Source: Imperialibacter roseus
GTDB lineage: Bacteria; Bacteroidota; Bacteroidia; Cytophagales; Cyclobacteriaceae
DNA: 64,000 nt
Direction: 5' to 3'
Assembly (NCBI RefSeq): GCF_032999765.1
Contig: NZ_CP136051.1
Location: 2,828,417 to 2,892,416 of the forward strand
Translations under genes and position numbers: made by a program
The notes under the pieces: model-generated
Databases searched by the model: none
Seen by the model: the letters and a program-made list of their open reading frames with translations, nothing else
Told to the model about the DNA's origin: nothing
In this document: piece by piece, positions 59,911 to 64,000 of the stretch
How positions within the stretch are numbered: the stretch's first letter is position 1
Layout: each line of letters starts with the position of its first letter

Positions 59911-59928
59911 TTTTAGATAACTCTAAAA
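59911..59928. promoter_or_regulatory. palindromic operator, MntR/DtxR-type candidate
   Basis: TTTTAGA (59911-59917), TAAC, TCTAAAA (59922-59928) is a perfect 7-bp inverted repeat. It resembles DtxR/MntR boxes such as TTAG-n-TA-n-CTAA. It covers the -33 to spacer region of the promoter for the repressor gene. Confidence 0.65.
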
Positions 59929-59959: not shown

Positions 59960-60616
59960 ATGCTAAGCTTTGCCGAAGAAAACTACCTGAAAGCCATATT
60001 TCATTTGTCTGACAGCGGTGCTACTGAGGTGTCTACCAATGCTATTTCTGACCACATGAGCACGAAGCCTGCGTCGGTCAGCGACATGATCAGGAAGCTG
60101 GACGAAAAAGGGATGGTGACTTACAAAAAGTACTATGGGGTCAATATTTCCAAGAAAGGAAAAATGATGGCTTTGCAAGTCATTCGCAAGCACCGGCTTT
60201 GGGAAGTGTTTCTGGTTGATAAATTAAAATTCAATTGGGACGAAGTGCATGAAGTGGCCGAACAGCTGGAGCATATCAGGTCGGGGCTCCTTATCCAGCG
60301 CCTGGATGAGTTCCTCGATTACCCCAAAGTAGACCCTCATGGAGATCCTATTCCTGACGAAAACGGTGAGATGGCGGTTGCAAAAAAAACACCTCTGGAC
60401 AAGGTTGAGGTGGGAGTCAAAGGGAAAATTGTAGCGGTTAATGACGAAGGCTCGTCCTTTTTACAATACCTCGATAAAATCGGTATCTACCTTGGTGCCA
60501 GACTGGAGGTAACCGGGCGGGTCGACTTTGATGGTTCCATGGAGATACTGATAGATAACAAACAAAAGGTGTTCATATCCAGAGAAGTGTCTCAAAACAT
60601 TTTGATTACAGATTAA
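59960..60616 (+). CDS. mntR: MntR/DtxR-family metal-dependent transcriptional repressor
   Basis: The 218-residue protein has an N-terminal winged helix (about 1-70), a dimerisation and metal-binding domain with HRLWE (78-82) and VHEVAEQLEH (96-105), and a C-terminal FeoA/SH3-like domain (about 150-215). A glutamate (Glu101) replaces the DtxR Cys102, which is the manganese-type pattern. It probably represses this operon when Mn (or Fe) is replete, through the palindrome upstream. It is followed after two bases by the binding-protein gene. Confidence 0.92.
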   Translation: MLSFAEENYLKAIFHLSDSGATEVSTNAISDHMSTKPASVSDMIRKLDEKGMVTYKKYYGVNISKKGKMMALQVIRKHRLWEVFLVDKLKFNWDEVHEVAEQLEHIRSGLLIQRLDEFLDYPKVDPHGDPIPDENGEMAVAKKTPLDKVEVGVKGKIVAVNDEGSSFLQYLDKIGIYLGARLEVTGRVDFDGSMEILIDNKQKVFISREVSQNILITD

Positions 60617-60618
60617 AT

Positions 60619-61551
60619 ATGAAAAAATTGATATTGAGAATAACCCTGTCAGTTGCAATCATCAACATACTGTTCTTTGGCTGCACCCAAACCAGCCAAA
60701 AAAGGCAGAAAGATGCGAAGCTCAAAGTGCTGGCGACTACGGGAATGATTTACGATGCCGTACTGAATATCGCAAAAGACTCCGTTGAAGCGGATGCCCT
60801 AATGGGGCCCGGCGTTGATCCTCACCTTTACAAAGCCACCCAGGGAGACCTCCAGCGACTATCAGCGGCCAACGTTGTTTTTTATAACGGCCTTCACCTT
60901 GAAGGCAAAATGGGTGAAGTGCTGGAGAAGCTGGGGCGGCTGAAGCCGGTTGTGGCTGTATCAGAAGAAATACCAAAGGAAAGGCTTAGGGACACGCCTG
61001 TTTTCGCAGGAAACTATGACCCTCATATTTGGTTCAATGTTGACCTGTGGAAAAACGCCGTGCTGGAAGTTGGCAAGACGCTGAAAGAAAAAGACCCGGA
61101 CAACGCCGCTTACTACCAGAAAAATATGGACGTTTATCTGCATAAGCTTGATTCGCTTCATAGTTGGGTAAAGACAGAAATAGCCACCATTCCCGAAACC
61201 CAGAGGATTCTGGTTACTGCACATGATGCATTCGGCTACTTTGGCGATGCTTACAATATTGAAGTAAATGGGCTTCAGGGTATCTCCACACAATCAGAAT
61301 TTGGCCTCAAAGACGTAGCCGACCTGGTGAACCTTATTGTTGACAGAAACGTCAAAGCTGTTTTTGTTGAGACTTCGGTATCTGAAAGAGCCATTAATGC
61401 GGTGGTAGACGGCTGCAGGCAGCGTGGACATAATGTAGTGATTGGTGGCAAGCTCTATTCCGACGCAATGGGCGAATTTGGCACACAAGACGGCACCTAT
61501 ATAGGTATGGTGACGGCGAATGTAAACACAATAGTATCCTCGTTAAAATAA
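60619..61551 (+). CDS. metal ABC transporter substrate-binding lipoprotein (TroA/ZnuA-like)
   Basis: The 310-residue lipoprotein has lipobox FFGC (Cys22). Metal ligands align with TroA: His69 in DPHLY, His136 in DPHIW, His202 in AHDAFGYF and Asp282 in LYSDAMG. Three His and one Asp are the TroA/ZnuA-type set; PsaA-type Mn proteins have a Glu as third ligand. The His-rich loop of ZnuA is absent. So the metal is Mn, Zn or Fe, with Mn favoured by the repressor type. It ends nine bases before the ATPase. Confidence 0.93.
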   Translation: MKKLILRITLSVAIINILFFGCTQTSQKRQKDAKLKVLATTGMIYDAVLNIAKDSVEADALMGPGVDPHLYKATQGDLQRLSAANVVFYNGLHLEGKMGEVLEKLGRLKPVVAVSEEIPKERLRDTPVFAGNYDPHIWFNVDLWKNAVLEVGKTLKEKDPDNAAYYQKNMDVYLHKLDSLHSWVKTEIATIPETQRILVTAHDAFGYFGDAYNIEVNGLQGISTQSEFGLKDVADLVNLIVDRNVKAVFVETSVSERAINAVVDGCRQRGHNVVIGGKLYSDAMGEFGTQDGTYIGMVTANVNTIVSSLK

Positions 61552-61560
61552 TCTGGTAAG

Positions 61561-62355
61561 ATGAACATACATGCAGAAGATCCGATCATCGAAGTTCACG
61601 ACCTCACGGTCAGCTACAGTCAAAAGCCGGTGCTGTGGGGAATTGACCTCTCTCTTCCCAAAGGCAGCCTGGTAGGCATAGTGGGGCCTAACGGTGCCGG
61701 TAAGTCGACCCTTATCAAGGCCATTATGGATCTCGTGCCGCTTAGCAGCGGTTATGTGAAGCTGTTTGACACACAGCTTGACAACGTGAGGGAAAAGATC
61801 AGCTACGTGCCCCAGCGGGAGTCGGTCGACTGGGACTTTCCAGCGTCGGTTCATGATGTGGTGATGATGGGCCGTTACGGAAAGCTGGGGCTTTTCAAAA
61901 GGCCACGGCAAGCCGACAGAGAGGTGGTGCAGGAGAGCATGCGTTTGGTAGGCATGGAGGCTTTCAAAAACAGGCAGATTTCACAGCTGTCGGGTGGACA
62001 ACAGCAGCGGGTGTTTCTGGCCCGGGCGCTGGCGCAGCAGGCAGAGGTCTATTTTATGGATGAGCCATTTGCCGGCGTAGATGCGGCCACTGAAAAAGCA
62101 ATTGTAGAGCTGCTGAGGAGAATGTCGAAAGAAGGTAAAACGGTAGTCGTGGTGCACCACGACTTGCAGTCCGTAGCCAAGTATTTCGACTGGCTCATTT
62201 TGCTGAACATGCGACTGGTGGCTTCCGGGCCAACGGTCGATGTGTTTAAAGAAGAGCTTTTGCAGGAAGCGTATGGAGGCAAGCTCACCATTCTGTCGGA
62301 AGTGGGAGACTTGCTTACTAAAGGGCGCTTCCCCAGCAGAGAGAAAACAGTGTAG
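61561..62355 (+). CDS. metal ABC transporter ATPase
   Basis: The 264-residue ATPase has Walker A GPNGAGKST (42-50), the signature LSGGQQQR, Walker B VYFMDEPFAGVD, and a conserved histidine in VVVHHDL. It belongs to the ZnuC/TroB group. It energises metal import by the two permeases downstream. Gap to the permease 21 bases. Confidence 0.95.
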   Translation: MNIHAEDPIIEVHDLTVSYSQKPVLWGIDLSLPKGSLVGIVGPNGAGKSTLIKAIMDLVPLSSGYVKLFDTQLDNVREKISYVPQRESVDWDFPASVHDVVMMGRYGKLGLFKRPRQADREVVQESMRLVGMEAFKNRQISQLSGGQQQRVFLARALAQQAEVYFMDEPFAGVDAATEKAIVELLRRMSKEGKTVVVVHHDLQSVAKYFDWLILLNMRLVASGPTVDVFKEELLQEAYGGKLTILSEVGDLLTKGRFPSREKTV

Positions 62356-62376: not shown

Positions 62377-63666
62377 ATGGAAGACTTTCTCTATTTCTTT
62401 TCTTTTCAGGATCCCAACATCAGGTACGTGGTGGTGGGTTCGGTGCTACTGGCTATCAGTGCGGCCATTGTAGGTTGTTTTACCTTTCTCAAGAAAAGAG
62501 CCCTCATTGGAGACGCCGTTGCACATTCGGTTCTTCCCGGTGTATGTCTGGCCTTTGTTGTCACAGGAACCAAGAACCCCATTTACCTGATTATTGGGGC
62601 GTTCATCACAGGCTGGCTCTCTCTCCGGTTCATTGACATGATCGTTAGGTATTCCAAACTAAAAGAAGACACCGCCATCGGCCTCACCCTGTCAGTTTTT
62701 TTCGGCCTCGGCATTCTGATCCTTACGGCTATCCAGCATTCCGGCAACGCCAATCAAAGCGGACTGGATCAATTCCTGTTTGGCAAAGCAGCCTCTCTTG
62801 TTGGCCAGGATCTCATCGTGTTCGGGTCGGTCAGTATTATTTTGCTGCTGGTTGTCGGCCTCCTTTTCAAAGAGCTGACTCTTCTTGCCTTTGACGAACA
62901 GTTTGGCAAAGCCATTGGCATGCCTGTGAAAGGGCTGGAGCTCGTTTTGACAACGCTCACCGTGCTGGCCGTAGTTACCGGCATTCAGGCTGTGGGCGTG
63001 GTGCTAATGGCTGCCATGCTCATTACGCCCGCAGCGGCGGCCCGGTTCTGGACCGACAAGCTGACCACAATGGTGTTCCTGGCAGCACTCTTTGGGGCAG
63101 TTTCGGGTATTTCTGGCGCCTACATCTCTTTCGTGGCTCCTGCTATGCCTACAGGACCGTGGATTGTCCTGGTGATTTCCTTCATCGCCATGAGCTCGTT
63201 CTTCATTGCGCCTAGAAAGGGCATCCTGTACAAGCAATACCAGCAAAGAAAGTATCAAAAGCAAATCCTGGAGGAAAACATCCTCAAGGCATTTTTCCAC
63301 CTGGGTGAGGCCGATGAACAATACTATGGCCACCGTAAGATAAGCGACCTGATCTCCCAACGACGTTTCGTAATAGGGCGGTTAAAAGGCGGCCTCCAAA
63401 AACTAGTGAGAAGCGGTTTCCTGAAGCAGGATCGGGAAGGCTGGGTACTTACCGAAGAGGGTAAAAACAAAGGGCAACGCATAGTGAAGCTTCACCGGCT
63501 TTGGGAGCTTTACCTGACCGAGTATTTGCGAATTGCGCCCGACCATGTGCACGATGAGGCCGAAACCATCGAGCATATCATAACGCCGGAAATAGAAGCC
63601 CGGCTGGAGAAGAAACTGAACTATCCGTCGGTTGATCCGCACAACGAAACCATACCTTACAGATAA
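62377..63666 (+). CDS. metal ABC transporter permease fused to a DtxR/MntR-like C-terminal domain
   Basis: The 429-residue protein has an ABC-3 family permease of about eight membrane segments in residues 17-278. It continues with a charged linker and a cytoplasmic C-terminal region (about 297-429) that looks like MntR: a winged helix (ENILKAFFHLG, GFLKQDREGW), then HRLWE (373-377) and VHDEAETIEH (391-400), and a close match to the MntR end around VDPHNETIP. The metal ligands are largely kept. The FeoA-like domain is absent. The tail may sense metal and control transport, or bind DNA. Permease part is secure, sensing role is inference. Confidence 0.93.
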   Translation: MEDFLYFFSFQDPNIRYVVVGSVLLAISAAIVGCFTFLKKRALIGDAVAHSVLPGVCLAFVVTGTKNPIYLIIGAFITGWLSLRFIDMIVRYSKLKEDTAIGLTLSVFFGLGILILTAIQHSGNANQSGLDQFLFGKAASLVGQDLIVFGSVSIILLLVVGLLFKELTLLAFDEQFGKAIGMPVKGLELVLTTLTVLAVVTGIQAVGVVLMAAMLITPAAAARFWTDKLTTMVFLAALFGAVSGISGAYISFVAPAMPTGPWIVLVISFIAMSSFFIAPRKGILYKQYQQRKYQKQILEENILKAFFHLGEADEQYYGHRKISDLISQRRFVIGRLKGGLQKLVRSGFLKQDREGWVLTEEGKNKGQRIVKLHRLWELYLTEYLRIAPDHVHDEAETIEHIITPEIEARLEKKLNYPSVDPHNETIPYR

Positions 63667-63669
63667 GCC

Positions 63670-64000
63670 ATGGAAGCGATATATATCATCTTAGCAGGTT
63701 CTTTGGTGGCCGTTTCGTGCGGCCTGGTGGGGAGCTACCTCATCCTTCGAAAAATGGCCATGGTAGCTGATGCCATTTCTCATGCCGTGTTGCCGGGTAT
63801 TGTAATAGCATTTTTCATTTCTGGCAGCCGGGACTCCCTGCCCATGCTTTTGGGAGCCGGTGCGCTGGGCATCATCACCACTTTTCTCATCGAATTCTTC
63901 CACAAAAAGGGCAATCTCCAAACCGACGCCTCCATTGGTGTCACCTTCACCTGGCTGTTTGCCCTGGGCGTTATTTTGATTTCTACTTTCGCTGGCAAGG
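63670..64000 (+). CDS. second metal ABC transporter permease, partial (3' end outside the window)
   Basis: The first 110 residues of an ABC-3 family permease. Membrane segments and the motifs VGSYLILRKMAMVADAISHAVLPG and LQTDASIGVTFTW fit TroD/ZnuB-type proteins. ATG 63670 lies three bases after the previous stop codon. It is the partner of the fused permease in the transporter. Whether it also has a C-terminal domain cannot be seen. Confidence 0.92.
   Translation, partial: MEAIYIILAGSLVAVSCGLVGSYLILRKMAMVADAISHAVLPGIVIAFFISGSRDSLPMLLGAGALGIITTFLIEFFHKKGNLQTDASIGVTFTWLFALGVILISTFAGK

Follow-up and report, generated by a model that had tools for sequence, protein, structure and literature searches.

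INTRODUCTION

The fusion of a metal ABC permease to a DtxR-like domain is already known from Chlamydia, where YtgCR (CT069) of C. trachomatis has this architecture (PMC5599777, PMC7755916, PMC6504234); a preliminary description of the locus examined here omitted this published precedent. The YtgR fragment has been reported as 28 kDa (PMC5599777). The tail, with roughly 150 residues (L297-L315), is smaller than this, and a fragment of the reported size would retain transmembrane helices.

A second relevant group consists of ABC importers, such as MetNI and ModBC, in which an additional domain on the cytoplasmic side can sense the substrate that is taken up. Domains of such kind act by trans-inhibition (PMC10710835). 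They are located on the ATPase and adopt other folds. Little is known in bacteria about fast post-translational control of transition-metal importers by the metal that they take up. In the literature searched, we found no descriptions of DtxR-like permease tails outside Chlamydia, and the examples of trans-inhibition that were found sit on ATPases.

Here we describe a permease-DtxR fusion of Imperialibacter roseus, encoded in a 64,000-nucleotide stretch of DNA that was analyzed as a whole (the window). The fusion resembles YtgCR in joining an ABC-3 permease to a C-terminal DtxR-like domain with conserved ligands, and in belonging to a four-component metal ABC operon. However, no other DtxR-family protein was present in the three Chlamydiota genomes searched, whereas a full MntR is encoded in the present operon. 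What is new is evidence for a sensor on the transporter rather than a repressor in this case, together with the breadth of the arrangement, which includes paired tails and a version linked to FeoB.

RESULTS AND DISCUSSION

Organization of the operon and the fusion protein

The operon is arranged in the order mntR, ZnuA-type binding lipoprotein, ABC ATPase, fusion, and a second permease without a tail. Its features are as follows.

59912..59927, forward strand, candidate MntR operator TTTAGATAACTCTAAA, identified by pattern match
59960..60616, forward strand, stand-alone MntR/DtxR-family repressor with PF01325, PF02742 and FeoA domains
60619..61551, forward strand, metal substrate-binding lipoprotein of the ZnuA family (PF01297, E 5.5e-78)
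61561..62355, forward strand, ABC ATPase of a metal importer (PF00005; best NCBIfam matches are Mn/Fe importer ATPases)
62377-63666, forward strand, open reading frame of the metal importer permease-DtxR fusion, 429 aa
62377..63225, forward strand, ABC-3 permease (transmembrane) part, residues 1-283 (PF00950; structural match to PsaBC 7kyp)
63223..63315, forward strand, connecting helix, residues 283-313, continuous with helix 1 of the DtxR-like domain (AlphaFold model, pLDDT about 90)
63256..63663, forward strand, DtxR/MntR-like tail, residues 294-429, winged helix plus metal-binding/dimerization domain (assigned by fold and identity to the operon's MntR)
63373..63411, forward strand, helix 333-345, corresponding to the DNA-recognition helix, unconserved among relatives
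63451..63657, forward strand, metal-binding/dimerization domain PF02742, residues 359-427, with ligands H373, E377, H392, E396, E399 and H400
63670..64000, forward strand, second ABC-3 permease, cut by the end of the window; the complete protein is tail-free and has 298 aa (L003 4087-4983)

The mntR gene is located three genes upstream of the fusion, not four as first described. The tail is not the only DtxR-family protein of the genome (G000), in which two proteins contain PF02742, namely MntR and the fusion. The ATPase reading frame of 264 aa lacks an extra sensor domain, and the tail is present once per C/D heterodimer in this operon. The candidate operator TTTAGATAACTCTAAA is the sole match in the window, where 0.17 matches would be expected with one mismatch allowed, and in several relatives stand-alone mntR is likewise preceded by its TTTAGAnnnnTCTAAA form. 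A second genomic copy of the pattern (C1:115342) adjoins an unrelated peptidase-like gene and is probably due to chance.

The protein is an ABC-3 metal permease joined to a complete winged helix and metal-binding domain of the DtxR/MntR type. Pfam assigns residues 12-277 to ABC-3 (PF00950, E 9e-66) and residues 359-427 to Fe_dep_repr_C (PF02742, E 6e-24). The resemblance of the permease tail to the operon's own MntR, claimed at the outset, is borne out by 35% identity over 130 aa (residues 288-429, E 6e-24), and sequence matches in the PDB include SloR, ScaR, DR2539, IdeR and DtxR. In an AlphaFold model built with 44 relatives (mean pLDDT 87.5), residues 3-291 match the transmembrane part of PsaBC of Streptococcus pneumoniae (7kyp, Z 35.5), which differs in having no tail and is described as a homodimeric permease (PMC11779740). 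Residues 294-429, with the wHTH included, match DtxR-family repressors with Z scores of 15-19 (up to 19.2). Chance similarity to the DtxR family is ruled out by these E-values and the fold match.

The tail shares its fold and metal ligands with the stand-alone repressors MntR, DtxR and SloR, but it differs from them in being attached to the membrane, in lacking the FeoA/SH3 domain, and in its unconserved DNA-reading helix. The winged helix is predicted to be present as a fold because the model of residues 294-429 matches these repressors. Its sequence is so diverged that the N-terminal DtxR DNA-binding domain, PF01325, finds no match in the tail, although it does in the operon's MntR, and the proposed winged-helix match thus holds at the level of fold but not of sequence profile. 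The ligands were correctly reported as retained: in DtxR numbering, H79, E83, H98, C102, E105 and H106 correspond to H373, E377, H392, E396, E399 and H400, and position 10 corresponds to N301. The FeoA-like domain is indeed missing, and the protein ends at a conserved DPHxxxIP motif. In the model, the junction is one confident continuous helix (residues 283-313) with no disordered linker between permease and tail.

Conservation of metal ligands and of the recognition helix

Metal ligands are retained throughout the full-length Bacteroidota fusions and the Chlamydiota tails examined. Each of the 95 Bacteroidota tails has H79, E83, H98, E105 and H106, with either E or D at position 102. All ligands are kept in the tails of genus Chlamydia (19/19), and the other Chlamydiota have the same ligand pattern (30/30). 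Loss of ligands in relatives, which was first named as evidence against a sensor, is therefore absent from the 95 Bacteroidota fusions and the 49 Chlamydiota tails. It does occur in the tails that consist of a winged helix only and in those of Bacillales (see below).

If the tail reads DNA, then its recognition helix should be as conserved as that of MntR. Tails and MntR proteins were compared at 21 Bacteroidota loci that hold both (210 pairs), using DtxR positions 36-51 as the recognition helix and 70-110 as the metal segment. The metal segments are similarly conserved (identity of 0.66 for tails versus 0.70 for MntR), whereas the recognition helix has an identity of 0.23 in tails versus 0.54 in MntR, as judged from pairwise identities that are not phylogenetically independent. 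Likewise, the winged helices of Bacteroidota tails score a median of 12.9 bits against a stand-alone winged-helix profile, compared with 69.8 for their metal domains against the metal-domain profile.

Genus Chlamydia, in which YtgR is experimentally supported as a repressor, served as a positive control for constraint on the helix. At a permease identity of 0.7-0.8, helix identity is 0.685 in genus Chlamydia (29 pairs) and 0.344 in Bacteroidota (171 pairs); at 0.8-0.9, the values are 0.854 and 0.458. In contrast, metal-segment identity in genus Chlamydia versus Bacteroidota is 0.712 versus 0.782 in the lower range and 0.862 versus 0.902 in the higher. A conserved recognition helix, used here as a proxy for DNA binding by a repressor, is not found in the Bacteroidota tails, and their difference from genus Chlamydia is large. 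An unconserved helix alone was rejected as proof that DNA binding has been lost, since other Chlamydiota behave like Bacteroidota; the argument is one of constraint, not proof.

The Chlamydiota tails from outside genus Chlamydia (L267-L296) have a hydrophobic, unconserved recognition helix with F or L at DtxR position 43, and genus Chlamydia is more conserved. DNA binding of the YtgR type may not hold across the whole phylum.

Distribution and states of the tail

Among the 241 genomes sampled from the order, 101 encode the full fusion, which is scattered across the phylum. In a scan of species genomes, it was also found in Planctomycetota, Verrucomicrobiota, Kiritimatiellota, Chlamydiota, Latescibacterota, Omnitrophota, Sumerlaeota, Bdellovibrionota and Balneolota. 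Pairing of the fusion with an MntR, a point raised in the preliminary description, proves to be usual but not universal. A stand-alone MntR is encoded close by in most Bacteroidota fusion loci, but several Bacteroidota genomes (G326, G334, G204, G220, G570 and others) encode no PF02742 protein other than the fusion.

Five states of the tail can be distinguished. In Bacteroidota, Verrucomicrobiota and Chlamydiota, the tail is complete and confined to the first permease. In Planctomycetes, Latescibacterota, Omnitrophota and Kiritimatiellae, both permeases carry full tails that have ligand-type residues (including L151, L154, L157, L158, L161, L163, L189, L190, L191, L198 and L199). The model of a second-permease tail also has the DtxR fold (Z about 18), and the base-contact positions of these tails are hydrophobic, as at a protein interface. 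In such operons, the paired tails could dimerize within one transporter. The third state, a tail of winged helix only, mostly on both permeases, occurs in a clade that comprises part of the Bacteroidota sample, Anaerolineae and Tissierellia; the metal domain is absent from these tails (L111-L119, L057, L164, L167, L197). In Bacillales, the winged-helix tail has a ligand-less end, and the fifth state is the absence of a tail.

Tail-bearing Mn-importer permeases of Bacillales (L177, L182, L237-L252) are 424-441 aa long, a length similar to that of B. subtilis MntC. Two of them (L177 and L182, 430-435 aa) resemble the present fusion in joining a permease to a homologous winged-helix tail (hhalign 98%), but their tails lack the metal ligands. 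Overall, hhalign relates the third and fourth states to full tails with 96-98% probability. Because these winged-helix-only and ligand-less tails exist, the metal domain is dispensable in some lineages. Where the winged helix is kept without it, this part must have a role that does not depend on metal.

In a quick tree of the permeases, in which the Chlamydiota branch is long, three Chlamydiota rows fall inside the Bacteroidota fusion set (61-row split, SH-aLRT 98), as sister to Cryomorphaceae/Schleiferiaceae (SH-aLRT 95). Because the Chlamydiota branch lies inside the Bacteroidota fusions, this fusion and Chlamydia YtgC appear to belong to one family.

A membrane-anchored DtxR-like-FeoA protein beside FeoB

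In a second, independent arrangement, two genomes from the same family (G301 and G310) hold a DtxR-like-FeoA protein and FeoB at the syntenic locus in place of the ABC operon. The gene mntR precedes this protein, and the two reading frames that encode FeoB come after it.

L316 2407-3432, DtxR-like-FeoA protein
L317 3644-4660, DtxR-like-FeoA protein

The G310 locus begins with dapD, a glycosyltransferase gene and mntR, and it ends with mnmE. The order of mntR, DtxR-like-FeoA protein and FeoB is the same in G301, on a shorter contig. These proteins have 339-342 aa, with a single hydrophobic helix at the N terminus, a DtxR-like domain in which PF01325 is not detected, and a FeoA domain. Full-length relatives are encoded in 40 of 395 genomes of the phylum. 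All 32 that were read adjoin FeoB and keep all six ligands, and 22 of the 32 also adjoin an MntR by a simple motif test.

A putative metal sensor on the transporter

On balance, we consider it probable that the tail senses metal in the cytoplasm and acts directly on its own transporter, by trans-inhibition, and is not a released repressor. It sits on one of the two permeases of an importer of the MntABCD/TroABCD type and would sense a divalent metal, probably Mn2+ and possibly Fe2+. At high cytoplasmic metal, the tail would bind the ion through its two-site ligand set of the DtxR type and would change conformation or pairing. Transport would thereby be slowed, as in MetNI and ModBC, although in those systems the inhibition is established and here it is inferred. 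Transcription would instead be controlled by MntR, which the operon encodes separately.

The tail had originally been proposed either to gate transport directly or to provide membrane-tethered regulation. This proposal is partly supported. The evidence favors direct action on transport over tethered regulation, because the ligands are invariant, the DNA-reading helix is unconserved, a separate MntR with a candidate operator is present, and some phyla have two tails. The rigid junction in the model, the hydrophobic base-contact positions, and the FeoB-linked DtxR-like-FeoA proteins also point toward a sensor. Against it stand the single tail per C/D heterodimer, the metal-independent winged-helix-only and ligand-less tails found elsewhere, and the few Bacteroidota genomes with the tail as their only DtxR-family protein, where a repressor might be expected.

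Those few genomes would suit a tail that is cleaved from the permease, as in YtgCR, and becomes a cytoplasmic metal-dependent repressor. The architecture and permease clade shared with Chlamydiota YtgC are in keeping with this possibility, and C. trachomatis YtgR is known to be cleaved and to bind operators (PMC5599777, PMC6504234, PMC7755916). However, such cleavage has been reported for Chlamydia only, the recognition helix is conserved in that genus but not in Bacteroidota, PF01325 is absent from the tail, and a dedicated MntR is encoded in the same operon. The continuous confident helix at the junction also argues against a released repressor, although it does not exclude cleavage. The helix-conservation control lowers the probability of a simple YtgR-like repressor, which we judge to be unlikely. 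It is very unlikely that the tail instead heterodimerizes with MntR or another partner, so that sequestration at the membrane would signal the state of the transporter and tie repressor activity to it. The tail does keep the dimerization domain and shares 35% identity with the operon's MntR, and an MntR is usually encoded nearby, but fusions exist in genomes without any MntR, and two-tail systems could pair internally.

Rather unlikely, too, is a nonregulatory tail that serves as an exit-side acceptor or buffer for the transported ion, or as a structural clamp whose metal site stabilizes the complex. The winged-helix-only and ligand-less tails show that part of the domain has a role that does not depend on metal, and the ligand set could serve for handover; yet this set is that of sensory DtxR sites, and the FeoB-linked version is no permease domain. 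Drift of the winged helix and loss of the metal domain in some lineages might even suggest the functionless relic of an old fusion. This is barely credible and was rejected on ligand conservation, since residues kept over such deep divergence are incompatible with neutral decay.

Implications

If the tail acts as a sensor on the transporter, then one fusion has probably met two fates, becoming a repressor in genus Chlamydia and a transporter sensor in Bacteroidota. More tentatively, DtxR-fold modules that do not read DNA may be direct metal sensors on importers in many phyla, attached to one or both permeases of Mn/Fe ABC systems and to FeoB through a membrane helix and FeoA. In Bacteroides fragilis, FeoA slows GTP hydrolysis by FeoB, and a downstream signal whose identity is unknown has been postulated to dislodge FeoA once iron is sufficient (PMC8980893). 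The DtxR-like-FeoA proteins are natural candidates for this signal and would suggest an answer for FeoB.

Repressor-type metal sites on a transporter would make control of this kind testable with simple ligand mutants. Should experiments confirm the sensor role, the tail would be a direct brake on uptake. The DtxR-fold module would then carry a protein-level metal signal that switches import off, in parallel with the control of transcription by MntR.
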